Shown here: positions 2,233 through 29,147 of the stretch, in pieces
How the letters are laid out: the number at the start of each line of letters is the position of its first letter
Position numbering within the stretch: position 1 is the first letter of the stretch
NCBI GenBank assembly: GCA_016235815.1
Contig: JACRIM010000052.1
Coordinates: 1 to 64,000 of the forward strand
Reading direction: 5' to 3'
DNA: 64,000 nt
Origin: Planctomycetota bacterium
GTDB taxonomy: Bacteria > Planctomycetota > Phycisphaerae > UBA1845 > UTPLA1
Made by a program: the position numbers and the translations under genes
Notes under the pieces: generated by a model
What the model was told of the DNA's origin: nothing
What the model saw: the letters and a program-made list of their open reading frames with translations, nothing else
The model's database searches: none

Positions 2233-2307
<75 letters not shown>

Positions 2308-2703: not shown

Positions 2704-3057
2704 TTAGGCACAAACCGCGCCTTGCAGCAAGCCGTCGACGAGTCCCTGAACATCCAGGCCGTTGATCTCATGGTTGCTGTTGAGATCGCCGGGGCAACAG
2801 GCCGGCTCGCAGGTCACACCGTCGCAGTCCGTACCGACGCCGCCGAACACGCCGCTCAGCGTCGCGCACGAATCGGGTGAAATCGGCGAGCAGGCGCCGT
2901 TCACGCGGCACGAACCCTCATAGCGCAGGTCGAGTGTCCAAGCGTTGCCCGTGTCTCCTTGATCTGAGCATGTAACCACAGACGCGCTGGTGCATCCAAC
3001 GGGACATACATGCGAGTGTGTCGAATCGCATTGCCCGGAATAGCATACGGTTGTGCC
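2704..3057 (-). pseudogene. C-terminal remnant of a secreted dockerin-type protein
   Basis: The minus-strand frame is open from a stop at 3058-3060 to the TAA at 2704-2706. It encodes a cysteine-rich stretch (VCYSGQC, HVCPVGC, CEPACC) followed by a dockerin-like end, GDLNSNHEINGLDVQGLVDG. That tail resembles the one on the secreted protein at 27411-29147. There is no signal peptide and no room upstream for the body of a normal exported protein before the operon starting at 3165. A GTG at 2979 could start a 91-residue peptide, but the homology-like sequence continues upstream of it. It is best read as a truncated gene at the island edge. Confidence 0.65.
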
Positions 3058-5401: not shown

Positions 5402-5455
5402 TGCTCGTTCCCGTAACCGGCTGTAACCGCCTGACCAAGCCCGCATCCAAGTTCT

Positions 5456-12886: not shown

Positions 12887-12935
12887 GCTGATTAGGATGC
12901 GGCCCATGCCTGCCGGTTACGCCCACCCGGTGGAC

Positions 12936-13748
12936 TTAGGGTTTGTCGTTAGCCTGCCCGAGCTTCATCTGGTCGAATTGACACCGAAAAATGCAGCGCC
13001 GACTGTTGCAATGGTCGAGTTTCGCGCAATAAACGCGGTGATGGGTTGGTAACGTCGCATACACCGCCGACGCCATGAGCATTCCGACGACTGGCGCGGT
13101 CAGGTAAATCCAAATCGACTTCCAATGGCGTGCCACCAGCGCGGACCCAAAGGTTCGCGCCGGATTGAGGCTCATACCGGACAATGGCGCTTCGAATGTA
13201 ATGTACAAAGCGACGAGCACACCCGCGAAGAGCGCGGTGAACGGGGCCATCGCGGCGTCGTTGCTGACGTAGAGAACAACAAACATCATGCCGAAAGAGA
13301 TCGCCAACTCCGCGGCCCACGCCACGGTCACGCCGTACCGACCCGGCACTGTCACGACGTGATTGATGGCGGCGTGACGCAGCCTGTCTTTCAACAGGAC
13401 TCGCGCAAGGGAAACACCGGCAACGCCACCTGCGAATTGCGCCGCGATGTAGAAGAGTGCGTCCCAAGCCGCGACCTTTCGACGCAGGAAAAACGTTAAC
13501 GTGGTCGCGGGGTTCATGTGCGCGCCCGATTGTTGCCCCCACGGCGAATAGATGAGCACGACGGCCGTCAGCCCCATGGCGACACCCATGATCATTCGGC
13601 GAACAAAGGGGCTTTGAATGTGCCGAAGTACCGGCGAATCCGGGTGCCCAAGCAATGTTCCAAACGCGCAGGCCGACAGCATGAAACAGCCCAGTAGCCC
13701 CGCCTCCATCAGGTATTCCGGCCAATGATAAAAAAGCGCGTTGAGCAT
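12936..13748 (-). CDS. MIP-family channel (aquaporin / glycerol facilitator type)
   Basis: A 270-residue protein with six hydrophobic helices and both half-helix NPA signatures, AHMNPATTLTFF in the first half and MSLNPARTFGSALVARHWKS in the second. The Arg after the second NPA is the usual selectivity-filter arginine. The C-terminal 35 residues are polar and cysteine-containing (HRVYCAKLDHCN). Water or small neutral solutes are expected substrates; glycerol versus water cannot be told by eye. It lies between the VOC gene and the anti-sigma gene on the same strand. Confidence 0.9.
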   Translation of the reverse strand: MLNALFYHWPEYLMEAGLLGCFMLSACAFGTLLGHPDSPVLRHIQSPFVRRMIMGVAMGLTAVVLIYSPWGQQSGAHMNPATTLTFFLRRKVAAWDALFYIAAQFAGGVAGVSLARVLLKDRLRHAAINHVVTVPGRYGVTVAWAAELAISFGMMFVVLYVSNDAAMAPFTALFAGVLVALYITFEAPLSGMSLNPARTFGSALVARHWKSIWIYLTAPVVGMLMASAVYATLPTHHRVYCAKLDHCNSRRCIFRCQFDQMKLGQANDKP

Positions 13749-13785: not shown

Positions 13786-14031
13786 TCAGGAATTGCGCGA
13801 GCGACTCTCCAGGATCAGGCGGACCAGCTCGTCGGGCATGCTTTCGGTAATCGAAACGTCAGCCGCAGATTTCGATGATCGCGCGAGCGTCACCGTCCGT
13901 TCGTAGGACTCCACATACACCCGGCATGCGGGACAGTTTGCAAGGTGCAATTCGAATGTGGCACGCTGCCGCCGCGGCAATTCGCCGTCGAGGTACTGCA
14001 TCAGGAAATCTGCGATCTCGCGACAGGTCAT
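13786..14031 (-). CDS. Zinc-finger anti-sigma factor (zf-HC2)
   Basis: An 81-residue protein with the ZAS motif HLANCPAC (HxxxCxxC) preceded by [19 protein letters not shown], the typical start of ECF anti-sigma domains. There is no membrane helix, so it is a cytoplasmic, RsrA/ChrR-like short form. Such proteins normally sit beside their sigma factor, but here the only ECF gene in the island is at 22008-22661, about 8 kb away. It is divergent from the glucosidase gene at 14200 and shares its upstream region, so it may control that cluster. The pairing is inferred. Confidence 0.85.
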
Positions 14032-14199
14032 GGGGCCTCGAGGGGTTGGATGCCAAATGCTAGCGGTCGGTTACGTGATCACGGTTCCAATCGGGACATC
14101 CAAATGGTCCGCGTGGATCTGACAGCGAGTAACCGCGCCCAAACTGTCGCATCGAAGAAATACCGCACCAGGGTTCATTGCAACAGCCGAGGAGCGAAA

Positions 14200-16986
14200 A
14201 TGCAGTGCAAGGCTGAATCGCAGCGTCTTGATGAAGTTCGCAACGGACATACACACTGGCGCAAGTGGGGTCCCTACCTCAGCGAGCGCCAATGGGGCAC
14301 GGTCCGCGAGGATTACAGCGCCGAGGGAGCGGCGTGGGACTACCTCCCGCACGATCATGCCCGCAGCCGGGCGTACCGCTGGGGTGAAGACGGCATTGCG
14401 GGATTCAGTGACGACCAGCAGCGACTCTGCCTGGGACTGGCGCTGTGGAATGGCCGCGACCCAATTTTGAAAGAGCGACTTTTTGGACTGACCAACAATG
14501 AGGGCAACCACGGCGAAGATGTGAAGGAGCTTTACTACTACCTCGACGCCACGCCGTCGCATTCCTATTTGAAAATGCTCTACAAGTATCCGCAGGCGGC
14601 GTTTCCTTATGCGCAGCTCGTCGATGAGAACCGCCGGCGCGGGAAGGTCAAGCCGGAGTTCGAACTGCTCGATACGGGCGTCTTCGATGATGACCGCTAT
14701 TTCGACGTGTTTGTCGAATACGCCAAGGCCGGGCCTGATGACATCCTCATGCTCGTCACGATCCACAACCGCGGGCCCGACGAGGCCGCGATTCATGTGT
14801 TACCTCAGTTGTGGTTTCGCAACACATGGTCCTGGGATGGAAAGTCGCTCAAGCCGTCGCTCACCCTGGAAAATAACGCCGTCGTTGCTCGGAATCCAAC
14901 CTTGGGCAACTACCGACTCCATGCCGAAAGTGCCGCGGAATGGCTCTTCTGTGACAACGAAACCAATACGAAGCGGCTGTTTGGTTCATCCGGTGACACA
15001 CAGTATCCGAAAGACGCATTTCACGAGTTCGTCGTCAATGGAAACGCACAGGCCATCAATCCAATCAATACTGGAACGAAGGCCGCGGCCTTGCATCGGG
15101 TGACAATCCCGGCGGGTGGCGTATCGCGGTTTCGGCTTCGATTGACGACCGCCGGCTCAAGTATGCCATTTCAAGACTTCGATTCAATTCTGGCAAGCCG
15201 ACGACAAGAGGCCGACGATTTCTTTTCTGACTTGCAGGTCAACATGGACGATGCCGACGCACGCCTTGTCCAGCGCCAGGCCTTCGCCGGCATGATCTGG
15301 AACAAGCAGTTCTATTACTTCGACGTGCCTGAATGGCTGAAAGGCGACGCGGCTCAACCGCATCCGCCGATGCAGCGTCACTTCGGTCGCAATCGCGACT
15401 GGGAACATCTGAACAACGCCGACGTCATCTCGATGCCCGACAAGTGGGAATACCCGTGGTACGCCGCGTGGGATCTGGCGTTTCACATGATTCCCTTTGC
15501 GATGATCGACCCGGAATTCGCGAAGGATCAACTCGTGCTGCTGACGCGCGAGTGGTACATGCACCCAAACGGCCAATTGCCCGCGTACGAGTGGGCCTTC
15601 GGCGACGTGAATCCGCCCGTTCATGCGTGGGCGACCTGGCGCGTGTTTCAGATCGACCGCAAGCAGCAGCGGCTGGACGGTCAGCCGGAGTATGCCGGTG
15701 ACCTGGCCTTTCTGGAGCGCGTGTTTCATAAACTCATGCTCAATTTCACCTGGTGGGTGAATCGCAAGGATGCTCAGGGCCGCAACATTTTTCAGGGCGG
15801 CTTTCTCGGCCTCGACAACATTGGCGTCTTCGATCGCAGTGCGCCGCTGCCGACCGGCGGCTTCATCAATCAGGCCGATGGCACAAGCTGGATGGCGATG
15901 TACTGTTTGAATCTGATGCGCATCGCATTGGAGTTGGCGCTGCACAACCGGGTCTACGAGGACATCGCGACAAAGTTCTTCGAGCACTTTCTGCACATCG
16001 CCGAGGCGATGAACAAAATCGGAACGAAGGACATGTGTGCGGAAGGCGGTGTCGGCCTGTGGTGTGAACACGATCAATTCTACTACGATGTGCTCAACCT
16101 GCCCGACGGCCGGACGGTACCGCTGAAGGTGCGTTCGATGGTCGGGCTGATCCCGCTTTTTGCGGTCGAGACGCTTGAGCCGGAGCTTCTTGATCGCTTG
16201 CCAGAGTTTAAGCGGCGGCTCGAATGGTTCCTGAATTACCGTCCAGATCTGGCGGCATTGGTTTCGCACTGGGACGTGCCGGGCAAGGGCCAGCGCCGAT
16301 TGTTGTCGCTGCTTCGCGGGCACCGCATGAAGGCATTGCTCAGACGAATGCTGGACGAAGACGAGTTCCTGTCCGACTTCGGCGTGCGTGCTGTTTCCCG
16401 TGCCCATCGGGACTGGCCGTACGAATTGCGCCTCGACGGCCACACGCTGGGCGTTCGGTACCAGCCCGGCGAATCCGACTCCGGTGCGTTCGGCGGCAAT
16501 TCCAATTGGCGCGGACCGATTTGGTTCCCGGTGAATTACCTCCTGATCGAATCGCTCCAGAAGTTTCACCACTACTACGGCGATGAATTCCAAGTTGAGT
16601 GCCCGACAAGATCGGGAAACACGATGAGCGTCGGCGACGTCGCCGCCGAATTATCCAGGCGCTTGTCATGCATATTCCTGCGCGAGAGCGACGGACGCCG
16701 ACCGGTCGCCCAATCCCCATCATCGGGAGCCGACGCGGCCCGATACGAGCGTCTTCAACACGACCCGCACTTCAGAGACTACCCGTTGTTTCACGAGTAT
16801 TTTGACGGCGATACCGGACGCGGAGTCGGTGCATCCCATCAATGCGGCTGGACAGGCCTCATTGCGAAGCTTCTGGCCAGGCCCGGAAAGTCTTCCACCA
16901 AGGTCGCTCATTGCCCGGGCGAGAAACTCAGATCCGCCCATGCAGGTGAAACCCTTCAGGTTGCGACCGCATCCAATTCCCGATGA
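14200..16986 (+). CDS. MGH1/GH63-like glycoside hydrolase (glucosidase)
   Basis: A 928-residue protein. The ATG at 14200 has GGAGCGAAA just before it and the conserved sequence begins soon after ([19 protein letters not shown]); the open frame extends further upstream, but that part overlaps the anti-sigma gene and looks random. The layout is an N-terminal beta-rich domain (about 1-330) and an (alpha/alpha)6 barrel with [34 protein letters not shown] and [14 protein letters not shown], typical of GH63/MGH1-like alpha-glucosidases. It has no signal peptide, so it acts in the cytoplasm, perhaps on glucosylated compatible solutes. SDR and GMC genes follow in the same direction. Confidence 0.88.
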
Positions 16987-17017: not shown

Positions 17018-17926
17018 ATGATTGCGCCAACATCCACGCCGATGAGCAGCAGCCTCATTCGCAATTTGACTCCCGATCAGCTACCAAAGGTCGTCATGCC
17101 TGAGTGCGAGGCTCGGCCTGTTCTGAAGGGCCAGAAAGCGCTCGTCACCGGCGCCAGTTCAGGGATCGGTCGCGGCATCGCAATCGCGCTTTGCGCCGCC
17201 GGAGCCGACGTGATGATCAACTTCGTCGGCGATGAGGCTTCGGCCCGCGCCGTCGTGGATGAAGCGACGCACTGCGGCTGCACCAATCGCGGTCGTGCCA
17301 TAGCGTATCGGGCCGATGTTTCCGATGAAGTGCAAGTCGCCGACATGTTTCGACGCTTACGCGACGAGTTCGGGACCATCGATATTCTCGTCAACAACGC
17401 CGGCTTGCAGCAGGACGCGCCGATTGAAGAGATGACGCTGGCACAGTGGAACAAGGTCATCAGCGTCAATCTGACAGGCCAGTTTCTCTGCGCCCGTGAG
17501 GCCGTGCGAGAGTTCAAGCGTCGCGGCGTTCAGAAGGACGTGTCCTGCGCCGCAGGCAAGATCATCTGCGTCAGCAGTGTGCATGAAGTAATCCCCTGGG
17601 CCGGACACGTGAACTACGCGGCCTCGAAGGGCGGCGTGTTTCAGCTCATGAAGTCCATCGCCCAGGAAGTCGCACCATGGCGCATTCGCGTGAACAGCAT
17701 CTGCCCGGGCGCGATTCGGACGCCGATCAACATGCCGGCCTGGGCTACGCCGGCCGCGTATGCGGAGTTGATGAAACTCATTCCCTATAAGCGTATTGGA
17801 GAGGTCGAGGATATCGCCCGGCTCGCAGTCTGGCTCGCGTCAGACGAGGCTGATTACATCACAGGCGCCAGTCTGTTTGTGGATGGCGGCATGACGCTCT
17901 ATCCGGGCTTTGAGGCAGGCGGCTGA
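17018..17926 (+). CDS. SDR-family glucose 1-dehydrogenase-like oxidoreductase
   Basis: A 302-residue protein from the ATG at 17018. It shows the classical short-chain dehydrogenase plan: cofactor motif VTGASSGIGRGIAIAL, NNAG, the catalytic serine in ICVSSVHE, and Tyr/Lys in NYAASKGG. The C-terminus DYITGASLFVDGGMTLYPGF is typical of glucose 1-dehydrogenase-like enzymes using NAD(P). The roughly 45-residue N-terminal extension is usual for this subgroup. It lies 31 bases after the glucosidase and 58 before the GMC oxidoreductase, so hydrolysis of a glucoside followed by sugar oxidation is a reasonable reading. Confidence 0.88.
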   Translation: MIAPTSTPMSSSLIRNLTPDQLPKVVMPECEARPVLKGQKALVTGASSGIGRGIAIALCAAGADVMINFVGDEASARAVVDEATHCGCTNRGRAIAYRADVSDEVQVADMFRRLRDEFGTIDILVNNAGLQQDAPIEEMTLAQWNKVISVNLTGQFLCAREAVREFKRRGVQKDVSCAAGKIICVSSVHEVIPWAGHVNYAASKGGVFQLMKSIAQEVAPWRIRVNSICPGAIRTPINMPAWATPAAYAELMKLIPYKRIGEVEDIARLAVWLASDEADYITGASLFVDGGMTLYPGFEAGG

Positions 17927-17984: not shown

Positions 17985-19571
17985 ATGGCGCAGCGCTACG
18001 ACATCATCATCATCGGCACTGGCGCCGGCGGCGGCACGCTCGCTGCCAAGCTGGCCCCGTCGGGAAAGCAAATTCTCCTTCTTGAGCGCGGCGAGTATGT
18101 TCCGCGTGAGAAAGACAACTGGAACACGCGGGCCGTCAACGTCGAGGGGAAGTACAACACAAAGGAAATCTGGCGCGACAGCGCCGGTCGAGAACTTCAT
18201 CCGCACACCAATTATTACGTCGGTGGCAACACCAAATTCTACGGCGCGGCCCTCTTTCGCCTGCGCAAGAGCGACTTCGACGAGATTCGCCATCACGGTG
18301 GGACCTCACCCGCCTGGCCCATCGCTTACGAAGACATAGAGCCTTATTACACGGCCGCCGAGCGGATGTACCACGTTCACGGTCTGCGCGGGGAAGACCC
18401 GACCGAGCCGCCCTCGCGAGAACCTTATCCGCATCCGCCGGTGAGCCACGAACCGCGCATTCAGCATTTGCACGACGACCTCGTTGCCCTCGGGCTGAAG
18501 CCGTTTCACGTGCCCCTCGGCATCATGCTCGACGAGAAGAATCCGCGCACCAGCAAGTGCATCCGCTGCGAAACCTGCGATGGACATCCCTGTCTCGTTC
18601 ATGCCAAGGCGGATGCCCAGGTTTGCGGTGTTGACCCGGCCCTGGCGCATCCCAACGTCACACTGGTGACGGGCGCGATGGTTCAGCGATTGGAACCCAG
18701 CGCATCGGGCCGGGAAGTGACCGAAGTCGTGGTGAGTCGGGGAGCCACGGAGGAGCGCTACCGCGGCGACATCGTGGTCCTGTCCTGTGGTGCAATCAAC
18801 TCGGCTGCACTGCTGCTGCGCTCGCGCAACCAAAAGCACCCCAATGGCCTGGCGAACGCCTCCGACGTCGTGGGACGACACTACATGGGCCACATCAATT
18901 CGATCCAGATGGCTCTCTCAAAGTGCCCGAATCCCACGGTCTTCCAGAAGACGCTGGCCATCAACGACTTCTACGGCCCGTCCAGCGAATGGGATTTCCC
19001 GATGGGTCACATCTCCTTCGTCGGAAAGCTTGACGGAGACACGCTTCGGGCCGGCGCGCCCGCGTTGGTTCCTGGCTGGACGCTCGACAAAATGGCGCGA
19101 CACTCCCTCGACTTCTGGTTGACCAGCGAAGACCTGCCCGATCCTGACAATCGCGTCACGATCGATGCGCAGGGCAACCTGGTCCTCGGCTACACGCCCA
19201 ACAACGAGGAGGGCCACAAGCGTCTGATTGCAAAGCTCAAGGACCTGATGAAGCAGACCTCCAAGTGCGGGGTTCATGGTCACGACTGCCATCAGGGATT
19301 GCTCACGCGCTCGCTCTGGGTCGGGCAGCGAATTCCGCTGGCTGGTGTGGCGCATCAATGTGGAACGATTCGATTCGGACGCGACCCGAAGTCATCCGCG
19401 CTTGACACGAACTGCAAGGCCCACGAATTGGATAATCTCTACATCGTCGACGCCAGCTTTTTCCCGTCCAGCGGCGCCGTGAACCCGGCGCTGACCATCA
19501 TGGCCAATGCCCTTCGCGTGGGAGATCATCTGTTGAACAGGCTTGGAAGTTCCACGCCTGACCGATCGTGA
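17985..19571 (+). CDS. GMC-family FAD oxidoreductase
   Basis: A 528-residue flavoenzyme; the ATG at 17985 directly precedes the dinucleotide-binding motif IIIGTGAGGGTLAAKLA and the ERGEY sugar-contact end. A cysteine-rich loop follows (CIRCETCDGHPC, about residues 186-197). The C-terminal catalytic region contains GVAHQCGTIRFG with the active-site histidine, then SSGAVNPALTIMANALR with the paired asparagine. Relatives oxidise alcohols or sugars (glucose, gluconate, choline). There is no obvious Tat signal, so it is probably cytoplasmic. Its place after glucosidase and SDR genes supports a sugar or polyol substrate. Confidence 0.9.
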   Translation: MAQRYDIIIIGTGAGGGTLAAKLAPSGKQILLLERGEYVPREKDNWNTRAVNVEGKYNTKEIWRDSAGRELHPHTNYYVGGNTKFYGAALFRLRKSDFDEIRHHGGTSPAWPIAYEDIEPYYTAAERMYHVHGLRGEDPTEPPSREPYPHPPVSHEPRIQHLHDDLVALGLKPFHVPLGIMLDEKNPRTSKCIRCETCDGHPCLVHAKADAQVCGVDPALAHPNVTLVTGAMVQRLEPSASGREVTEVVVSRGATEERYRGDIVVLSCGAINSAALLLRSRNQKHPNGLANASDVVGRHYMGHINSIQMALSKCPNPTVFQKTLAINDFYGPSSEWDFPMGHISFVGKLDGDTLRAGAPALVPGWTLDKMARHSLDFWLTSEDLPDPDNRVTIDAQGNLVLGYTPNNEEGHKRLIAKLKDLMKQTSKCGVHGHDCHQGLLTRSLWVGQRIPLAGVAHQCGTIRFGRDPKSSALDTNCKAHELDNLYIVDASFFPSSGAVNPALTIMANALRVGDHLLNRLGSSTPDRS

Positions 19572-19599: not shown

Positions 19600-21573
19600 A
19601 TGGGTCTGCCGGGGTACAATCTCGCGGTGGACACATCCCACGAGTTGCTGATCGACACAAAGGAACTGACCGCCCTGCGCGCTATCGTCGAGGGCACGGC
19701 CGGAACCGCCGGCGAGGCGTTCTTTCAGACGCTTGTGCGTCATCTGGCCGACGCAGTCGGGACGAAATACGCCTTCATCGCCGAGTTTCTTGGCTCGACG
19801 CAGCCCTCGAAGGAAGGCGAGAATAAGTCAAAACAGGCGGGCCGGGCTCGAACGATCGCATTCTGGTTCAAGGATGCAATTGTCGACAATGTCGAGTGGG
19901 ATCTGCACGGCACACCCTGCGAGGACGTCGTTGCGGGCAGCGAGTGTCATCACCCCTCGGGCGTCAGCCAGAAATTCCCCGGCGATGAACCACTCGTGCA
20001 GATGGGAGTCGAAAGTTATCTCGGCGTCCCTTTGCGCGACGTTGACGGCCGCACGCTCGGTCACATGGCGGTATTTGACGATCGGCCCATGCCGGCCGAA
20101 CCCCGCAAACTGTACATCTTCAAGATCTTCGCCGCGCGGGCCGCAGCCGAGTTGATGCGTTTGAAATCCGAGCAGCAACTGCGCGAAAGCGAGGCCCGCT
20201 TTCGCGATCTGTTTGACGAAGCGCCGATCGCCTACGTCAATGAAGGACTCGATTCAAGGTTCATCAGTGCCAACCATGCCGCGATGAAAATTCTCGGCAT
20301 CACGCCTGATCAAGTCGCCGGTACGGTCGGTATGTCGTTCATTCCCGACACGCCCGAAGCGCAGCGGCGCGTGAAGGAGGCGTTCGAGTCGATCAACCGC
20401 GGAACGAATACCAGCGGCGTCGTGCTGGAGCTGCGCCGCCGCGATAACGGAAAACCCATCTGGATTCAGTGGTGGTCCAAGCCCGATCCGGGCGGCCAGT
20501 ACACCCGCACCATGTTTGTGGACATCACTGAACGCGTGCTGCTGGAGCAGGAGCAGGCACGACTGCGGGCACAAAATATCTACCTTCAGGAAGAAATCAA
20601 GTCCGTACACAACTTTGATGAGATCGTCGGACGAAGCGCCGCTCTGAACAGCGTCCTGGAACACGTGCGGCGCGTCGCTCCGACCGATTCGACCGTCTTG
20701 ATTACCGGCGAAACAGGCACCGGCAAGGAGTTGATTGCCCGGGCGATTCACTCAGCCAGCGGCCGGCGCGACAAACCGCTCATCAAGGTGAATTGCGCAG
20801 CGCTGCCCACGGGGCTGGTGGAGAGCGAACTCTTCGGACATGAAAAGGGCGCATTCAGCGGCGCAATCGCCAAACGCATCGGCCGATTCGAACTCGCCAA
20901 CGGCGGGACGATCTTCCTCGACGAAATCGGCGAAGTGCCGCCGGACGTGCAGGTCAAGCTGCTTCGCGTCCTCCAGGAGCGCGAGTTCGAACGCGTCGGC
21001 GGAAATGCACCGATCCAGACGGACGTCCGCGTCATCGCCGCAACAAATCGCGATCTGCTTGCGGTTTCGAAGGATGGCAAATTCCGGGCCGATTTATACT
21101 ATCGGCTGAATGTGTTTCCGGTTCATCTGCCGCCACTCCGTGAACGCGCCGACGACATCCCGCTGCTCGTTCAGTTCCTGCTCCGGAAGTTCACGGCGCG
21201 AATCGGTAAACGCATCGAAAGGGTGTCAGACGAGACGATGAGGCGCTTCGTGGCCTACCCGTGGCCTGGAAATATTCGTGAGTTGGAGAACATCGTCGAG
21301 CGAGCCGTCATCCTGGCGAATTCCGATGTGCTTGATATCGCCCCATCAACACTTACTACATCCGCCACCTTCTCATCGCCTACGTCGACTCACGCTCCGC
21401 CGATGAGCTTGGAAACCGTGGAACGCGAGCACATCGTGGCGGCACTGCGTAACTCGAACTGGGTGATCGATGGACCGTCGGGCGCCGCAAAAACCCTGAA
21501 CATCCACCCCAATACTCTCCGAAGTCGCCTCAAGAAGCTTGGCATCAACCGACCTGCCCACGACGGTTCGTAG
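19600..21573 (+). CDS. Sigma-54-dependent transcriptional activator (GAF-PAS-AAA-Fis)
   Basis: A 657-residue enhancer-binding protein from the ATG at 19600; an ATG at 19543 overlaps the GMC gene. Domains in order: GAF (about 15-185), PAS (about 195-320, RFRDLFDEAPIAYVNEGLDS), a linker, then the AAA+ domain with Walker A GETGTGKE near 370 and the sigma-54 contact loop as GAFSGA at 417-422 (consensus GAFTGA). It ends with a Fis-type helix-turn-helix near 605-650 (AAKTLNIHPNTLRSRLKKLG). It has no receiver domain, so it senses a ligand or redox signal through GAF/PAS. A sigma-54 promoter lies just downstream. Confidence 0.94.
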   Translation: MGLPGYNLAVDTSHELLIDTKELTALRAIVEGTAGTAGEAFFQTLVRHLADAVGTKYAFIAEFLGSTQPSKEGENKSKQAGRARTIAFWFKDAIVDNVEWDLHGTPCEDVVAGSECHHPSGVSQKFPGDEPLVQMGVESYLGVPLRDVDGRTLGHMAVFDDRPMPAEPRKLYIFKIFAARAAAELMRLKSEQQLRESEARFRDLFDEAPIAYVNEGLDSRFISANHAAMKILGITPDQVAGTVGMSFIPDTPEAQRRVKEAFESINRGTNTSGVVLELRRRDNGKPIWIQWWSKPDPGGQYTRTMFVDITERVLLEQEQARLRAQNIYLQEEIKSVHNFDEIVGRSAALNSVLEHVRRVAPTDSTVLITGETGTGKELIARAIHSASGRRDKPLIKVNCAALPTGLVESELFGHEKGAFSGAIAKRIGRFELANGGTIFLDEIGEVPPDVQVKLLRVLQEREFERVGGNAPIQTDVRVIAATNRDLLAVSKDGKFRADLYYRLNVFPVHLPPLRERADDIPLLVQFLLRKFTARIGKRIERVSDETMRRFVAYPWPGNIRELENIVERAVILANSDVLDIAPSTLTTSATFSSPTSTHAPPMSLETVEREHIVAALRNSNWVIDGPSGAAKTLNIHPNTLRSRLKKLGINRPAHDGS

Positions 21574-21577
21574 GCGC

Positions 21578-21591
21578 CACGACCGGTCGTG
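21578..21591. promoter_or_regulatory. Perfect 14-bp palindrome, candidate upstream activating site
   Basis: CACGACCGGTCGTG is fully self-complementary and begins five bases after the stop codon of the sigma-54 activator gene. It lies about 110-120 bases upstream of the sigma-54 promoter at 21701, a usual enhancer distance. A related CACGACGGTTCG sits at 21559-21570 inside the gene end, so there may be two half-conserved sites. Binding by the Fis-type HTH of the neighbouring activator is inferred. Confidence 0.55.
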
Positions 21592-21700
21592 AGCACCTGA
21601 GTTCTCCGTCGTGGTTGATACCGGCTAGACGAGTCGATCGTCCGTTTCTAAGTACTGTTTCTGCCACACGTTATGCGATTCTGAAACTCCTGCCTCCTCA

Positions 21701-21716
21701 TGGCACGGCGAATGCT
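21701..21716 (+). promoter_or_regulatory. Sigma-54 (-24/-12) promoter
   Basis: The sequence TGGCACG-GCGA-ATGCT fits the consensus TGGCACG-N4-TTGCW with one mismatch (A for the first T of the -12 element) and exact GG-N10-GC spacing. A start site near 21727 would leave a short leader containing AAGGAG at 21733-21738 before the STAS ATG at 21745. The activator gene is directly upstream. Confidence 0.8.
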
Positions 21717-21744
21717 TTTGGTCGTCGCACCAAAGGAGTTCGCA

Positions 21745-22011
21745 ATGCTCAGGATCACTCGTTTCGCGAAAGACGGAACCACATGGCTGCGTCTCGAAGG
21801 CAAGCTCATGGGGCCGTGGGTGGAGCACGTCCGGACGACGGTCGACCAGGAAACAGCGCGATGCAACTGCATTCACTTCGACTTGTCTGAACTCACATTT
21901 GTCGATGCGGCTGGCCTGCTGCTGCTTCGAGAGCTGTCAAGCTGCGGCCACGACCTGTCCCTTCGCTCCAATTTCGTCACCGAGCTGCTTCGTGCGGAGA
22001 TTCACCCATGA
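21745..22011 (+). CDS. STAS-domain protein (anti-anti-sigma-like)
   Basis: An 88-residue single STAS domain. The ATG at 21745 follows a strong AAGGAG at seven bases. The SpoIIAA-like core is visible in IHFDLSELTFVDAAGLLLL, where the position of the usual phosphorylatable Ser (D-S-x-G) is occupied by Ala in VDAAGL. If so, phospho-control would be lost. It is transcribed from the sigma-54 promoter and overlaps the ECF gene by four bases, so the two are coupled. A regulatory partner is not evident. Confidence 0.82.
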   Translation: MLRITRFAKDGTTWLRLEGKLMGPWVEHVRTTVDQETARCNCIHFDLSELTFVDAAGLLLLRELSSCGHDLSLRSNFVTELLRAEIHP

Positions 22012-22661
22012 TCATGCAAACCTACAACGGGCGCAGCCGCGAGGCCTCGTGCGATCTGGAATTTGAAGAATCCGAATTGCTGCAGGCACTTCGGGCCGGC
22101 GAAGAGCCGGCATACGAGCGATTTGTGCGCCAATACGGCGGCGCCATGCAGGCAGTCGCGCGGCGGTTTCTTCGATGCGAACAGGACGCAGCCGACGCGG
22201 TCCAGGAGGCGTTTCTCTCCGCGTTTCGATCGATTCGCGGATTCGCCGGCGATTCAAAAATCGGCACCTGGCTTCATCGCATCGTTGTCAATGCGTGTCT
22301 GATGAAGCTTCGTGCCGGGAAGAGCAGACCTGTCGTCTCGATCGAAAGCCTGTTGCCATCGTTTGATGAAACAGGGCACCACGCGAACCGAATCAGTGAT
22401 TGGAATGTGCCATCGCACCGACTCGAAGCGGACGAACTCCGCGCGACAGTTCGACGTTGTATTGACGAACTTCCGGACCCATTTCGCGTCGTGCTTCTCT
22501 TGCGTGATATCGAAGAACTGAACACGCAGGAGACTGCGGAGCGACTCAGAATCAGCGAGCCTGCCGTGAAAGTGCGATTGCATCGCGCCCGACAGGCGCT
22601 GCGGACGCTTCTTGATCCGACCCTCCGAGCCGATCGGGAGCACGGCAGGGCTGCTCGATGA
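22008..22661 (+). CDS. ECF-type RNA polymerase sigma factor
   Basis: A 217-residue protein with the two domains of ECF sigma factors. Region 2 is at about 25-95 (YERFVRQYGGAMQAVARRFL, DAADAVQEAFLSAFRSIRGF, IGTWLHRIVVNACLM). Region 4 is at about 145-200 (LPDPFRVVLLLRDIEELNTQ, RISEPAVKVRLHRARQALR). It is translationally coupled to the STAS gene and placed under a sigma-54 promoter, so one alternative sigma factor appears to control another. The zf-HC2 anti-sigma gene at 13786-14031 is the likeliest partner within the island, though not adjacent. It is the last gene before the right repeat. Confidence 0.92.
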   Translation: MIMQTYNGRSREASCDLEFEESELLQALRAGEEPAYERFVRQYGGAMQAVARRFLRCEQDAADAVQEAFLSAFRSIRGFAGDSKIGTWLHRIVVNACLMKLRAGKSRPVVSIESLLPSFDETGHHANRISDWNVPSHRLEADELRATVRRCIDELPDPFRVVLLLRDIEELNTQETAERLRISEPAVKVRLHRARQALRTLLDPTLRADREHGRAAR

Positions 22662-23310
22662 CGATGTCGCTGATTTTGCCATTTCTCACCTATGCAGGGT
22701 CGCTTGCCATGATGACATTCTTACCACCAACAGTTGCGTCAAAGTTGCGTCAGAGTCACTCTGAAGACACCCCGGAAAACAGTCCCGAGTCAGTTCGGAT
22801 TTAGTGACGCGCCCGCTCGCCGCTTCGATCGTTACTGCTTATTTGGCAGTTGGTTAGCTTCGGCCCCCGGTGGATTCTCAAGCGGGACGTCGTGGGTTCG
22901 AATCCCATCGCCCGCTGTTTCCTTGTCTTCCATCGGTTTACGATTCTCGCGCGAGCATTGCTGCATAGGCAATGCCAGGCGAAGACCGTGTTTGCGGGCC
23001 GATGAGCGTTGTTCATGACCGTCGGCTTGGCGACGGTGAGTTGGTCAAAGGGTGGTCGAATAGAATGCGAGTGCGGCAGGTGTCGCAACCGTGACAGCTA
23101 TTCGGCGGGATCATTACCGAATGACAATAAGGTAGGCCGTTTGCCAAGCCCCGCGGCGTCGTTTTGACTCGAGAACAGAGGCTCACGTGTTAAAAGGAAA
23201 TAAGCATAATGGAATTGAGTTAATACCGTGACGTGGTTTATCCGACTGTCGGCGACTTCAAGCCTTTCCGGCTGAGAGGCATACGTTCCGAAATTGCGTG
23301 AAACACCGCC
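22662..23310. other. Non-coding right end of the island and junction
   Basis: No gene is supported. The stretch holds the displaced tRNA-Gly 3' half (22875-22919) and, about 125 bases left of it, two direct copies of GTTGCGTCA (22733-22741 and 22744-22752) that might be recombinase arm sites. A minus-strand frame over the repeat begins MGFEPTTSRL, the well-known artefact of antisense tRNA sequence. From 22920 to 23310 I see nothing recognisable. Confidence 0.6.
22875..22919 (+). repeat. Putative attR: displaced tRNA-Gly 3' half
   Basis: This copy matches 2263-2307 at 43 of 45 bases, with 35 identical bases at 22885-22919. Upstream of it there is no acceptor or D arm, so this is a fragment and not a second tRNA gene. 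It is in the same orientation as the intact tRNA. Confidence 0.8.
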
Positions 23311-26300
23311 CTATGGAGTGGACGGCCCGTCTTCGCGAGGCGTCGTGACGCCGGCAGCGCCGCTTCGGGCTTCGTGGATTCTGGCGAGTTGCTGGGCGAC
23401 GTTGCGTGTCGTGGGGTGCTGCGGACCGAGCGTCTTCGTTAGGTCTTCCATCGCTACCGTAAGGTGCACCAGTGCTTCGTCGAGGCGGCCGGCCTCGACC
23501 AGTGCTTTTCCAAGCGTTGCCCGCAGGGTAGTTCGATATACGTGCCCGTGCGGCAGCTTGTCACCGGCCAGGGTGACGGCGTCGCTCAGAATTGAGATCG
23601 CGTCGTCAATACGGCCTCGATGGGCCAGGGTTTCTCCGGTAGTGTTTGTAATGAGAAATGTGAGTGGGTGGGCCGGGCCGAAGGTCTCGCGGCTGGCGGA
23701 AAGGGCTTGAAGGGCCAAAGGCTCGGCCTCTTCAAAACGTTCGCGAGCGAGAAGGGCCTTCACGAGATTATTCATGGATAGAAGGGTATCGGCATGCGAC
23801 GGACCGAGCAGGCGTTGCCGCAGTTCCAACACATGCCGCAGCGTTGCCTCGGCTTCGATCTGACGCGGTCCGCCATTAGCAACGTGGAGATTGGCAAGGC
23901 TGCTCATCGTGGTCAGCGTTTGGGGATGTTCGTCACCCAGAAGTCGGCGTCGAACCTCGAGGACATGGCGATACAATTCCTCAGCCTCGGCCGCATTACC
24001 CTTTTGGAACAACAGATTTCCAAGGTTGTTCAGCCAACTCAGCGTGTCGGCATTTTCGTCACCCAGCAGGGCACGTCCTTGTTCGACTGCCTTCCGCGCC
24101 AGTGGCTCGGCATCGGCCACACGGCCCTGCTCCGACAACAGCACGGATAGATTGTTGGTCGTGACAATGGTGTCAAAGTGATCCGGTCCCAGCCTGCGAT
24201 TCATGGCGTCGAGTGTTTCACGCAACGTGGCTTCAGCTTCCGCAAGCTTGCCTTGCGCCTGGAGGAGGCGACCGTAGCTGTTCTTGTTCCGAAGCGTGTC
24301 AGGGTGATCCGGCCCGAGAACTTCGTGTGTCAACCGCACCAGTTCGTCATACACCGGCGCTGCTTCATCGAGCTTTCCGCGCGCCTTGAGCAACCTGGCA
24401 AGATAGTTCATCGTGCCCAGGGTGAGTGGCGAACGGTCGCCCAAGACCCGCCGCTGAATCGTCAGGATGGCGCGATATTCGGCTTCAGCTTCGTCAACCT
24501 GGCCCATCTCCTGCCGGATCGCGGCGAGTATTTTCCGCGTGATGAGTGTCGACTCGTTCTCCTCCCCCAGAACTCGGCGCGATCGTTCGAGTGCTTCTTC
24601 CAAAAGGACCTTTGCTTCGGCGTGCTTGCTCCGCTTACGCAGAAGATTTGCAAGGTTGTGCAACACATCAATGGCGAAGGAACTATCCGGACCTTGTACC
24701 CGCCGTACGGTATCGAGGCACTCCCGGAAAAGCGCTTCGGCCTCGTCATAACGGCTTTGGTCTTCAAAAGCCGTCGCCAGTCCGTTCTGTGCTACCAGGG
24801 TATCGGAGTGATCTACTCCGAGGGCGCGCACGGCGAGATCAAAGCCGGCGCGATAGCTGCGCTCGGCTTCTTTTGCGTGACCGAGCGAGAGATAGGTCTG
24901 ACCAATGGTGCTATGCATGGCGACGGCGACCTGCGGCTCCTGGGTCAGTTGCTCGTCCACGCGGCCGGCCGCGGTGTCGAGTATTTCGCGAACCGTTACT
25001 TCCTTTCCTTGCGAGGTATTGGGGTCGGCTGCGGCGAGTGTGTCCCGCAGGAAGCTCGTGGTGATTTCCGCTTTGCGCGCTTCGAGTTGTGCTTTGCGAT
25101 AAAGGATACCAAGTGCAATTGCTGAAACAGTGAGCACGAAAATAAACGCGGCGGCCACCCCGGCCTGCACGCGATATCGCCGAAGTGTTTTGCGCAGGAC
25201 GTACAAACCGCTGTCGCGCTTGGCCTCGATGGCCTCGCCGCCGAGGTATCGCTGCACGTCACTGGCCACCTGACCGGCTGTTTGGTAGCGCCGCTCGGGA
25301 TCCTTGTGAAGGCATTTGAGCGTTATTGTCGCCACTTCTTCATCAATGGCGGGGTTGTGGCGGCGCGGGTCGACCGGTGGTTCTCGCACGATGTGATCGA
25401 GCACTTCACGAGACGTGCCGGTCACATCATACGGCAGGTTACGGGTTAGAATCCGATACAAAACCACACCGAGTGAGTAAACATCCGAACGCATGTCGAC
25501 CTTGTCGGGCCGTCCTTCGGCCTGCTCGGGGCTGCACCACGGGAGTGATCCGATGAACTGTCCGGCAATCGTGACGTCCGGCAGGCCATCGGAAAGCTTG
25601 GCGAGACCGAAGTCGAGAACGTGCGGCCGGCCCGAATCGTCGACGCGGATGTTTGAGGGCTTGATGTCTCGATGAATGATGCCGCGCAGATGTGCTGAAT
25701 TAACCGCCTGGCAGATGGAATGAAATAGTTGAAGGATAGTTCGGATGTTCGTGCGAGTTTCGCCTGGTGCGATTCGACCCGATTTCGATGCGTGCTCCCA
25801 TTGGCCGTCAACATACGTATCCAACGCGGAGCCGGGGATGTAATCCATCACGAAATAATGGCGGCCATTGACGATGCCACTCTCGTGGATCGTCACGATG
25901 TTAGGATGGTTCAAGCCGGCGAGGATTTTAACTTCGCGCTGAAAGCGCGCCCGCTCGCCTGGACCCGAAAACGGCCCTTCATGCATAACTTTGATGGCCA
26001 CATCGCGCTGGGTGAACTTCTGGACTGCTCGATACACCACGCCCTGGCCACCACGGTGAATCTCCCCGCGGACCTCGTATCCCGCCAGTGAATAGGTAGA
26101 CGGAGCCGAGGACTCGCCTTCGTCGATCCGTCCGGTCGAACCGAGTGCCCAACCCTTGCTCGATCGGCCGGCACGCCGTCGCGCTGCCTCGACGATTTGC
26201 AACTCACCCAGGAGTTCTCGAAGGCCAGGCATCAGTTCCGGATGCGCGCTGATAATGGCCTCGTCGGTTAGGTCTTCGCCCTTCAACCGACGGGCGATGG

Positions 26301-26376
26301 CGTCTTCAATGACGGGCAAAAGCCGGGCGTGTCGACCATCGGGCGCTTCACCGATCGAAGAGGATCTGCGCGACAT
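23311..26376 (-). CDS. Ser/Thr protein kinase with membrane anchor and long TPR tail
   Basis: A 1021-residue protein from the ATG at 26376. A short N-terminal region is followed by a Hanks-type kinase domain (about 95-365) with GEIHRGGQGVVYRAV, VAIKVM, IIHRDIKPSNIRVD, VLDFGLAKL and a truncated APE equivalent (WCSPEQAEG), so it should be catalytically active. A single membrane helix lies near 415-435 (VAAAFIFVLTVSAIALGILY). The remaining 580 residues are kinesin-light-chain-like TPR repeats of about 42 residues (ADPNTSQGKEVTVREIL linker first). It sits 121 bases downstream of an ECF sigma gene on the same strand, a planctomycete arrangement in which the kinase is thought to act on the sigma factor. 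Confidence 0.93.
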   Translation of the reverse strand: MSRRSSSIGEAPDGRHARLLPVIEDAIARRLKGEDLTDEAIISAHPELMPGLRELLGELQIVEAARRRAGRSSKGWALGSTGRIDEGESSAPSTYSLAGYEVRGEIHRGGQGVVYRAVQKFTQRDVAIKVMHEGPFSGPGERARFQREVKILAGLNHPNIVTIHESGIVNGRHYFVMDYIPGSALDTYVDGQWEHASKSGRIAPGETRTNIRTILQLFHSICQAVNSAHLRGIIHRDIKPSNIRVDDSGRPHVLDFGLAKLSDGLPDVTIAGQFIGSLPWCSPEQAEGRPDKVDMRSDVYSLGVVLYRILTRNLPYDVTGTSREVLDHIVREPPVDPRRHNPAIDEEVATITLKCLHKDPERRYQTAGQVASDVQRYLGGEAIEAKRDSGLYVLRKTLRRYRVQAGVAAAFIFVLTVSAIALGILYRKAQLEARKAEITTSFLRDTLAAADPNTSQGKEVTVREILDTAAGRVDEQLTQEPQVAVAMHSTIGQTYLSLGHAKEAERSYRAGFDLAVRALGVDHSDTLVAQNGLATAFEDQSRYDEAEALFRECLDTVRRVQGPDSSFAIDVLHNLANLLRKRSKHAEAKVLLEEALERSRRVLGEENESTLITRKILAAIRQEMGQVDEAEAEYRAILTIQRRVLGDRSPLTLGTMNYLARLLKARGKLDEAAPVYDELVRLTHEVLGPDHPDTLRNKNSYGRLLQAQGKLAEAEATLRETLDAMNRRLGPDHFDTIVTTNNLSVLLSEQGRVADAEPLARKAVEQGRALLGDENADTLSWLNNLGNLLFQKGNAAEAEELYRHVLEVRRRLLGDEHPQTLTTMSSLANLHVANGGPRQIEAEATLRHVLELRQRLLGPSHADTLLSMNNLVKALLARERFEEAEPLALQALSASRETFGPAHPLTFLITNTTGETLAHRGRIDDAISILSDAVTLAGDKLPHGHVYRTTLRATLGKALVEAGRLDEALVHLTVAMEDLTKTLGPQHPTTRNVAQQLARIHEARSGAAGVTTPREDGPSTP

Positions 26377-26497
26377 ACAGCAAACTCCCGGACCTGCCCA
26401 GCGCAAGCCGCCGGCCCAACTCCCTCTGATATCTAAACGTCCTGGAAGTAAGGCGCGCTCCAACCATTTTCTTAGTCAGCCGCCCGCCCGCTGCTGG

Positions 26498-27130
26498 TCA
26501 ACCGCGGCTCAGAAAGCGGGACTCCGTGCCCAGGAGTTCTCGCAGACGCGCTTTGGCCTTGTAACAGAGATTATGGACTGCACGTTCGGTGCGGTTCATG
26601 CCGGAGGCGGCTTCTTTGACCGTAAGTCCCTGCAAATACACGAGTGAAACGGCCTGCTGGAGATCTTCCGGCAGAAGGCTCAGTGCCGCGCGAACGGCTT
26701 CCATAGCCTCTCGTCCCGCAGCGCATCGGCTGGGGCTTTTCTCATCGCCGGCCATCAGGTCCAGCAGCACAACAACGGATTCGCCTACGCCCGGCGCGGC
26801 GGCATGAACCTGCATCTTGGCGCCGCCATGTTTGTCCGCCCCTCGCGTCTTGATGGCATCCCGCAACTTACGGAGGGCGATGGTGCGAACCCATCGGCCG
26901 AAGGAGTCCGCCCCGCGCGACTCAAAACCACCGATGTGGCGAAAGACCTCGGCGTAGGCCTCCTGAACGAGGTCGTCGGCGTCGATTCCGCCGCGCAGAT
27001 TCGAAGGGATGCGCCCGGCGACATAGTCACGGACATCGCGACGGTGCGTGGTCAAGAGCAACGTGAGGGCGACTTGGTCGCCTGCGATGGCGCGATGGAC
27101 GGCATCGGTTGTGGTATCCGAGGGGTCCAT
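26498..27130 (-). CDS. ECF-type sigma factor paired with the TPR kinase
   Basis: A 210-residue protein from the ATG at 27130; the frame continues upstream, but that part has no similarity to sigma factors. Region 2 contains GGIDADDLVQEAYAEVFRHI and FGRWVRTIALRKLRDAIK; region 4 contains LPEDLQQAVSLVYLQGLTVK and MNRTERAVHNLCYKAKARLR. It belongs with planctomycete ECF factors that lack an anti-sigma neighbour and are found beside Ser/Thr kinases, here the gene at 23311-26376. It is divergent from the secreted protein at 27411, with 280 bases between that must hold both promoters. Confidence 0.92.
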   Translation of the reverse strand: MDPSDTTTDAVHRAIAGDQVALTLLLTTHRRDVRDYVAGRIPSNLRGGIDADDLVQEAYAEVFRHIGGFESRGADSFGRWVRTIALRKLRDAIKTRGADKHGGAKMQVHAAAPGVGESVVVLLDLMAGDEKSPSRCAAGREAMEAVRAALSLLPEDLQQAVSLVYLQGLTVKEAASGMNRTERAVHNLCYKAKARLRELLGTESRFLSRG

Positions 27131-27410
27131 GGGCAGCGCACCTGTGTGTGAGAAAGGCCTGTCGCCGCTACAACTGCGACGGGAACACCGTCGGATTATA
27201 CCATACCGCTTTTCCCGCGAATTACCCACCGAATCCGTTTCCAGATAAGCACTTGTGGCAATCGGCGTCGCCCTTTGGAGTGGCAAATTGCAGGCATTGG
27301 AGCGCGCCAATGGGAAATTTCCTTTACCAAGTTGTGGGCGATGGTGGAAGCAACCCCAGGGTGGCGCTATCGAGCCTGTCCGAATCGAAATCTCCGTCCG
27401 GAGGAATCCC

Positions 27411-29147
27411 ATGCGTACCAGACTTTTCGTCGTCGCGTTATCGATTACCACGACGTGCGTCATGAATCATGCCGAGGCCGGCGGCGGATTGTCGTTTCAG
27501 ACGGTGGCCCTGTCCGGCCAAGCGGCGCCGGGGACAGGAGGTCGGATTTACTCCTTTTTCTATCCACCTTCGATTGGCAGTTCCGGCCGAGTCGTATTCC
27601 CGGGCTGGCTGACTGGCGCAACCTCCAACGACGAAGGACTCTGGTCCGGTCTTCCGGGGTCAATACAACTCGTGGCGCGGGAGGGGAGCGCTGCGCCGGG
27701 GACGACTGGTGTTTTTGGTCAAAACAGTTGGACTGCCCCGTCGTGCGTGAATTCAAATGGTACGGTGGCGTTTACGGCGAGCCTTACTGGTCCCGGGATA
27801 GACGGCACAAACAACACAGGAATATGGGTTGGACAGCCGGGGGCATTGGCCTTGGTGGCGCGAGCAGGCAACGCTGCCCCCGGAACCCCGGCGGGCGTCG
27901 TTTTTTCAGGCGGCATGCAAAACTGGCTGATGCTCAATGATCTGGGCCACATCGTGTTCCGCGCTAATCTCGTCGGCCCGGGTATTACCACCGCCAACGA
28001 CGCCGGAATATGGGCCGGCGCGCCCGGGGCTTTGCAGCTTGTTGCCCGCGAAGGAGATGTCGCCCCCGGGACTGGCGGCGTGTTCGATCTTTTCAACTAC
28101 CAATTTGAGGCATACCCCGTTCCTGTGATTAACGCGGCCGGAGACGTAGTCTTTTCGGGGCATCACACCGGCGGGCGCGGAATCTGGCGGTGGAGTGGCG
28201 GCGTACTCGAACTCGTTGCACGGACCAATACCAACGCGCCGGGAACATCTGCATTATTCGAATACCTCTTCGACCCGTGGATGAACGCGTCCGGCGAGTT
28301 GGTGTTCAAGGCATCCCTCATGGGCGAGGGCGTTGATTTCACCAACAACAACGGCATCTGGGCCGGCGTGCCCGGCGCGGTGGGACTCGTCGTTCGCAAA
28401 GGCAGTCCTGCTCCCGGGACCAGCGGTCTATTGTTCGTTCTGAACGCCGACAGCGTCGGACTCAATTCCATTGATGACGGTGGCTTTGTCACAATTCTGT
28501 CGTCAGTTGCTACCAGCGATTGGACCAGTACTCCCGGTCTCGGGATTTGGCGTTACGGAATCGAAGGGGGCGGCTCCGCATGGATGGTCTACAGTGATCC
28601 TGCGCCGGGCATGTCGGGCGTCATCATGGGAAACCCGAATACTTGCGGTCCACACCCGGCGTCGAGCATGCCATTTCCTTCGCAATTGACAGGGACGGGC
28701 GTGACCAACTCGAACGATGAATGTTACTGGCTGAAAGATGTGGGCAGTTCGCCGCGCCTGATCGTCAGGGAGAATGACCAGTTCGACATCGGCGGCGGCG
28801 TGATGCGGACGATCGGTACGATCACGACCTCACCTGGCGGCCACCGACAGTCGGGTTACAACGCAAACAGACAGATGGTCATCGGCCTGGGCTTCGCGGG
28901 TGGCTCGTCGGGCATCTTCGCGGCCAACGTTCCCGTGCCGGCGATGCTGGGCGACATGAACTGCGACGGAGCGGTCAATGGCCTGGACGTCGATGGCTTC
29001 GCGCTGGCGATCGTGGACCCCTTGAGTTACGCCTCCGAGTGGCCCAATTGCGACCTCCTCAACGGCAACATCAACCTAGACAGCGTGACGGACATCGCCG
29101 ACATCGAATTGTTCGTCATGTGTGTTATGAACGGCGGCTGCCCATAA
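27411..29147 (+). CDS. Secreted NxxG-type tandem-repeat protein with dockerin-like C-terminus
   Basis: A 578-residue protein; the ATG at 27411 follows GGAGG closely and opens a signal peptide (MRTRLFVVALSITTTCVMNH, cleavage near AEA-GG). The body has at least five repeats of about 65 residues built around NDEGLWSG-PG---LVAREG-APGT, the pattern of choice-of-anchor NxxGxxAF tandem-repeat proteins, which probably form a beta-propeller. The C-terminal 65 residues, GDMNCDGAVNGLDVDGF and INLDSVTDIADIELF, are two dockerin-like Asp/Asn loops common in planctomycete exoproteins. The role is unknown; surface display or an extracellular matrix is plausible. Confidence 0.85.
   Translation: MRTRLFVVALSITTTCVMNHAEAGGGLSFQTVALSGQAAPGTGGRIYSFFYPPSIGSSGRVVFPGWLTGATSNDEGLWSGLPGSIQLVAREGSAAPGTTGVFGQNSWTAPSCVNSNGTVAFTASLTGPGIDGTNNTGIWVGQPGALALVARAGNAAPGTPAGVVFSGGMQNWLMLNDLGHIVFRANLVGPGITTANDAGIWAGAPGALQLVAREGDVAPGTGGVFDLFNYQFEAYPVPVINAAGDVVFSGHHTGGRGIWRWSGGVLELVARTNTNAPGTSALFEYLFDPWMNASGELVFKASLMGEGVDFTNNNGIWAGVPGAVGLVVRKGSPAPGTSGLLFVLNADSVGLNSIDDGGFVTILSSVATSDWTSTPGLGIWRYGIEGGGSAWMVYSDPAPGMSGVIMGNPNTCGPHPASSMPFPSQLTGTGVTNSNDECYWLKDVGSSPRLIVRENDQFDIGGGVMRTIGTITTSPGGHRQSGYNANRQMVIGLGFAGGSSGIFAANVPVPAMLGDMNCDGAVNGLDVDGFALAIVDPLSYASEWPNCDLLNGNINLDSVTDIADIELFVMCVMNGGCP

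Follow-up and report, generated by a model that had tools for sequence, protein, structure and literature searches.

The locus analyzed here raises the question of whether one alternative sigma factor switches on another, as an earlier note on this DNA had proposed from a sigma-54 activator gene, a sigma-54 promoter and a STAS-ECF gene pair standing in a row, and, if so, which genes the second sigma factor controls. The window (the whole 64-kb stretch of DNA that was analyzed) is the start of contig C35 in a 4.58-Mb genome, probably that of a planctomycete, given that its nearest named relatives detected are MAGs of Phycisphaerae and other Planctomycetota. The proposed circuit centers on a trio of genes, all backed by Pfam:

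19600..21573, plus strand: sigma-54 activator (bEBP), GAF-PAS-AAA+(GAFSGA)-Fis HTH (Pfam, orthologs)
21745..22011, plus strand: STAS-domain protein, 88 aa (PF01740, 2.2e-5; SpoIIAA-type structures by profile; alignment)
22008..22661, plus strand: ECF sigma factor, 217 aa (Pfam Sigma70_r2 and r4_2; orthologs)

The Pfam domains of the activator run GAF-PAS-Sigma54_activat (PF00158)-HTH_8; its reading frame is open from 19543, and 19600 is the likely start inferred from alignment. Its place among the bEBPs is indicated by the AAA+ domain, the HTH and a GAFTGA loop that reads GAFSGA, a conservative T-to-S change, in all nine genomes that carry the trio. The STAS and ECF genes overlap by 4 nt, and the 217-residue product of the latter contains sigma-70 regions 2 and 4 only, which identifies it as an ECF sigma factor. 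The genome carries one rpoN (PF04552 match on contig C4, E 2.8e-51), so the objection that the earlier note itself had raised, a genome without rpoN, falls away.

We propose that the GAF-PAS activator, which would sense a cytoplasmic signal, acts with sigma-54 to transcribe the STAS-ECF pair, and that the ECF sigma factor in turn would transcribe a neighboring motif-bearing block that includes its own zf-HC2 brake, a joint model to which we assign a probability of about 0.78. The upper step, a sigma-54-to-ECF cascade at this locus, is a well-supported prediction. Comparison between genomes supports the order of the trio, the dyads, the sigma-54 site, and the ECF-type motif and its positions, and from these we infer all of the binding and transcription steps. 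Relatives were sought with the ECF sequence and the neighboring genes were then mapped, which revealed the order activator-STAS-ECF in nine genomes, the window's own included, with identities to the window's proteins of 70-78% for the activator (orthologs in eight genomes), 39-59% for the STAS protein and about 54-69% for the ECF. The activator, tandem dyads, -24/-12 site and STAS-ECF pair keep a constant order and spacing across the nine, and most other intergenic DNA has diverged. The proposal that one alternative sigma factor switches on another thus finds support in comparison, with rpoN present and the wiring conserved in nine genomes.

What the ECF might control is indicated by a shared bipartite motif, TGTAACC-N14/15-GCATCCAA, spotted by eye before neighboring genes. 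Six sites in the window score at least 13/15, two of them perfectly, and each lies ahead of a gene in the stretch from 2.9 to 17 kb:

2971..2999, plus strand: ECF-type motif TGTAACC-N14-GCATCCAA (15/15), 165 nt before ORF 3165 of the Rieske operon
5422..5450, plus strand: ECF-type motif (15/15), 73 nt before the AhpC/TSA-YHS gene at 5524
12893..12921, minus strand: ECF-type motif (13/15), at the glyoxalase-like gene, overlapping its longest ORF start
14046..14075, minus strand: ECF-type motif (14/15), 14 nt before the zf-HC2 gene
14128..14156, plus strand: ECF-type motif (13/15), 43 nt before the glycosidase start at 14200
16947..16976, plus strand: ECF-type motif (14/15), about 41 nt before the SDR start at 17018

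Shuffled sequence yields 0.1 such sites and a permuted consensus 0.2, a comparison that is not fully independent, since some of the sites counted had served to define the motif; at a threshold of 12/15 the count in the window is not significant (6 vs 2.6). The overlap at 12893..12921 implies that the true start of the glyoxalase-like gene would lie downstream of its longest ORF start. Further genes of the block are identified as follows:

12936..13748, minus strand: MIP-family channel, probable target (PF00230; linked in relatives)
13786..14031, minus strand: zf-HC2 protein, 81 aa, probable anti-sigma of the ECF (PF13490, 4.1e-13; relatives beside zf-type ECF genes)
14200..16986, plus strand: GH63/MGH1-like glycoside hydrolase, probable target (Pfam; linked in relatives)
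17018..17926, plus strand: short-chain dehydrogenase (SDR), probable target (Pfam; linked in relatives)
17985..19571, plus strand: GMC oxidoreductase, probable target, 28 nt before the activator (Pfam; linked in relatives)

The ECF would recognize TGTAACC-N14/15-GCATCCAA promoters across this neighboring 20-kb block, probably a set of stress genes, and the proposed targets are the glycosidase, SDR, GMC oxidoreductase, MIP channel, glyoxalase, AhpC/TSA-like and Rieske genes. A genome-wide count of the motif in 58 genomes did not separate those with the trio from those without it, so the motif claim rests on position and not on number. In relatives, the motif precedes the same genes even after they have been relocated. 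Our attribution of the motif to this ECF, and not to some other sigma factor, is a prediction: the sigma-54 step could be real and the motif sites could nonetheless belong to another of the genome's ECF sigma factors, leaving the neighbors outside the control of this one. Room for such an arrangement is left by the 17 matches to the ECF in the window's genome at E 0.001, by the occurrence of the motif beyond the trio genomes, and by two genomes (G009 and G110) in which neither the motif nor the linked genes are found near the trio. We nevertheless consider it improbable, as the trio stays linked to the glycosidase, SDR, GMC, MIP and further motif-bearing genes in 7/9 genomes despite rearrangements of order and orientation, and as zf-type ECF genes of this subfamily elsewhere are also preceded by the motif (L067, L078, L081, L092 and, more weakly, L073; most such relatives are without it), which offers more independent support for the motif itself.

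One of the six motif sites precedes the zf-HC2 gene at 13786..14031. The product of this gene carries a zf-HC2 (ZAS) domain (PF13490, 4.1e-13) in which the HxxxCxxC signature reads HLANCPAC, and its relatives in genomes G008 and G011 adjoin zf-type ECF genes. Since the window's genome contains one strong zf-HC2 copy and one ECF of this subfamily, and the relatives of both stand side by side, the two are probably partners, with the zf-HC2 protein predicted to inhibit the ECF as its anti-sigma. The motif precedes the zf gene in G029, G058 and G065 as well, and the ECF would drive its own anti-sigma in a negative feedback. A positive loop may be superimposed in this genome: the site at 16947 heads the SDR-GMC pair and the activator gene begins shortly past the GMC stop, so that transcription could read through into the activator gene. 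The same order and direction (SDR-GMC-activator) occur in G029 and G011, and GMC-activator in G065; the arrangement is not seen in G055. We infer both loops, the negative and the positive, from these arrangements.

The trio and its probable targets all lie between two copies of a 35-bp repeat that enclose about 20.6 kb:

2233..2304, plus strand: tRNA-Gly(CCC), its 3' end covered by the 35-bp repeat at 2273-2307; left border of a possible island
22885..22919, plus strand: the 35 bp of the tRNA-Gly 3' end repeated without mismatch, as right border of the possible island

An exact direct repeat of a tRNA 3' end thus marks both ends, the right copy standing just past the ECF gene. A tyrosine integrase gene (777-2036) adjoins the tRNA-Gly on its 5' side, yet outside the repeat-bounded block, and integration at the tRNA is therefore likely. 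On contig C60 (G000:C60:5892-5917), next to unrelated genes, the tRNA 3' end is present a third time, within 172 bp that share 96% identity with the right border, which suggests the end of another element. Just beyond the block on the other side, a second ECF-type sigma gene (26498-27463, minus strand) adjoins a Ser/Thr-kinase-like TPR gene (23311-26463, minus strand).

How the ECF gene itself would be switched on is indicated by the DNA between the activator and STAS genes:

21559..21572, no strand assigned: candidate enhancer dyad 1, CACGACGGTTCGTA, 9/10 to CACGA-N4-TCGTG; equivalent in 9/9 genomes
21578..21591, no strand assigned: candidate enhancer dyad 2, CACGACCGGTCGTG, the palindrome of the earlier note; equivalent in 9/9 genomes
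21609..21613, plus strand: possible third half-site TCGTG, a conserved block in the nine-region alignment
21701..21716, plus strand: predicted sigma-54 promoter TGGCACG-N4-ATGCT; in 9/9 genomes the top-scoring site falls at -43 to -50 relative to STAS

A perfect palindrome at enhancer distance had been noticed previously and is indeed present at 21578-21591, about 110-120 bp upstream of the -24 box, but it is not the single site it was taken for: it is one member of a tandem pair, and the other member, CACGACGGTTCGTA, which overlaps the activator stop codon, had been missed. The two dyads are spaced 19-20 bp apart in 9/9 trio genomes and stand within the range of about 80-200 bp upstream for bEBP enhancers. 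A single CACGA-N4-TCGTG dyad is near background (9 places genome-wide vs 6 in the control); the tandem pair has a single occurrence in the 4.58-Mb genome and none in the control, and the nine regions hold 19 dyads against 1.6 expected. Identity in the nine-region alignment peaks at the dyads, at the downstream TCGTG half-site and at the -24/-12 box. In G029 and G011 the activator stop lies 1.6 and 0.6 kb upstream, yet the dyads keep their distance to the promoter, and the conservation of dyad 1 therefore exceeds what protein constraint would impose. The same displacement speaks against taking the palindromes, in place of an enhancer, for hairpins in the RNA or for the activator gene's terminator, a reading invited by the position of dyad 1 over the stop codon, with dyad 2 after it, and by the capacity of each dyad to fold as a 5-bp stem with a 4-nt loop. 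No T-run follows, the dyads track the promoter and not the activator stop, and the 19-20 bp tandem spacing suits dimer binding to DNA; hairpins are accordingly very unlikely, and the terminator has been set aside. On the preferred enhancer reading, the activator would bind the tandem CACGA-N4-TCGTG dyads just 3' of its own gene. Between enhancer and promoter, at 21640-21690, the nine-genome alignment also displays a partly conserved, less clear TAA...TT block.

From the dyads, the activator would drive sigma-54 RNA polymerase at 21701-21716, yielding STAS and ECF together. The site, TGGCACGGCGAATGCT, agrees with the consensus TGGCACG-N4-TTGCW at 11/12 positions and has the right GG-N10-GC spacing, which confirms the near-perfect promoter match claimed in the earlier note, and it lies between the activator gene and the STAS-ECF pair as had been stated, 127 nt past the activator stop (21573) and 28 nt ahead of the STAS ATG (21745), with AAAGGAG at 21732-21738 in the interval. 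The transcript start previously predicted near 21727 matches the one expected from this site. Taken by itself, the -24/-12 site is weak evidence and near genomic background, with 39 genome-wide matches to TGGCAC-N6-TGCW vs 30 for the reversed control. Because a single match barely exceeds chance, the case for the promoter rests on conservation: the best -24/-12 match in 260 nt sits 43-50 nt before STAS in 9/9 genomes, and the summed sigma-54 score at that offset is 90/108, where the maximum in 2000 shuffles was 70 (joint test 0/2000). Judged one by one, four of the nine are weak (9/12), and the site of G055 has TAGCAC instead of TGGCAC. A chance match, with STAS-ECF transcribed from a housekeeping or ECF promoter, is hardly credible, for although the loose -24/-12 pattern is barely enriched in the genome and autoregulation is the usual case for ECFs (review PMC8103513), the same offset recurs in all nine genomes and before STAS genes of other phyla, and no ECF motif of at least 12/15 precedes STAS in the trio genomes.

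Elsewhere in this genome, an identical copy of the 16-mer TGGCACGGCGAATGCT stands in promoter position before a malic-enzyme gene (G000:C28:20203-20218, minus strand; L019 1501-1516). Another exact 16-mer, TGGCACGCGAATTGCT, occurs at at least five places (contigs C6, C8, C11, C27 and C29; L004, L006, L012, L018 and L020), more copies than expected of independent sigma-54 sites, and may represent a repetitive element or a promoter common to these places.

The predicted sigma-54 promoter together with its activator and STAS gene is not confined to the planctomycetes. A GTDB scan with an alignment of the activator's GAF-PAS region identified relatives in Methylococcales, Nitrospira, Verrucomicrobia, Chitinophagaceae, Acidobacteria and others, many of them adjoined by STAS genes, and the combination of activator, sigma-54 site and STAS recurs in Nitrospira and Methylococcales. 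At 28 further loci the best -24/-12 match before STAS scores 9-11/12, against a shuffle background in which 10 is reached in 1.4% and 9 in 13% of cases; the score before 23 zf-type ECF relatives is only 7-9. STAS is followed by an ECF gene in planctomycetes and Nitrospira. No ECF match was found after STAS in Methylococcales, and in Methylomonas LW13 a sigma-54-like site directly precedes a TolC-like gene (name read from sequence). By eye, the dyad half-sites differ in these other lineages. Upstream of STAS at several Nitrospira loci (L232, L238 and others), they resemble CCCAA/TTGGG mixed with CACGA/TCGTG, as if the activator's site had drifted between lineages. In the ECF tree, most planctomycete trio ECFs group together (91/96) inside the zf-type ECFs, and those of Nitrospira and Verrucomicrobia are distant, on long branches; one and the same front half thus seems to have taken on different ECFs.

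The match of the STAS protein to PF01740 (2.2e-5) is over the cut-off and that to TIGR00377 below it, and profile comparison matches it to SpoIIAA-type structures. In SpoIIAA and RsbV, phosphorylation falls on the residue that follows the core Asp. In the nine genomes this position reads A, A, R, A, P, H, S, S, R, with Ala in the window's protein, so that the phosphoserine is absent from 7/9 and the protein is not filed as a standard RsbV-type switch. It resembles the SpoIIAA/RsbV anti-anti-sigma factors in its STAS fold, as judged by profile, and in having its gene beside a sigma gene; it differs in that the phosphorylation serine is unconserved, that no RsbW-type kinase gene was noticed beside the trio, and that the probable anti-sigma is a zinc-finger protein. 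What a STAS protein with no conserved phosphorylation site does beside an ECF with a probable zinc-finger anti-sigma is a question that this locus poses, and our guess is that it helps to release or tune the ECF without phosphorylation. A bolder and rather doubtful extension is that of a transferable cassette, with a front half fixed across phyla (GAF-PAS activator, sigma-54 promoter, STAS), an interchangeable ECF or none, a non-phosphorylated STAS that would free the ECF from zf-HC2, and a regulon holding both brake and activator. We know of no case in which a STAS protein releases an ECF from a zf-HC2 anti-sigma.

The joint model of activator, sigma-54, STAS-ECF and motif-bearing block describes a complete circuit that can be tested, from sensor and enhancer through the sigma-54 site, STAS and ECF to the promoter motif, the regulon and the anti-sigma, in organisms whose regulation has seen few experiments. 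The front half of this circuit is also found in cultured methanotrophs. The combination of STAS, sigma-54 activator and ECF sigma was not found described in the open-licence literature. The nearest relatives of its lower half are the ECF and zf-HC2 pairs of related planctomycetes (L067-L097), which share the ECF subfamily, related zf proteins and, in some cases, the same motif before the ECF; those ECFs come without activator, STAS or sigma-54 site, whereas in the window's genome the ECF and zf genes stand apart. The upper half of the model has counterparts in three known systems. In Borrelia, an Rrp2-sigma-54-RpoS cascade (PMC11109971) likewise has one alternative sigma controlling the transcription of another, but there the downstream sigma is RpoS and not an ECF, and the activator is a different one. 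The E. coli rpoE P2 promoter is under RpoN and QseF (PMC8103513), a sigma-54 input into ECF gene transcription like the one predicted here; P2 is one of several rpoE promoters, whereas the sigma-54 site is the sole promoter detected before STAS-ECF. In Pseudomonas syringae, HrpRS and sigma-54 transcribe the gene for HrpL, an ECF32 sigma factor (PMC8999054; PMC5263251). As in our prediction, an enhancer-binding activator with sigma-54 there transcribes an ECF gene whose product then runs a regulon; here, in contrast, there is one GAF-PAS activator, a STAS gene precedes the ECF gene, and the regulon would include a probable zf-HC2 anti-sigma and targets of metabolic or stress type. The neighbors examined gave no sign of type III secretion genes, and HrpL is absent among the NCBIfam matches listed. 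The switching on of an ECF by a sigma-54 activator is thus already established (HrpRS-HrpL, PMC8999054), and the novelty here lies in an operon that begins with STAS, in a probable anti-sigma gene that stands apart behind an ECF-type motif, in the proposed regulon and in a front half that spans multiple phyla.
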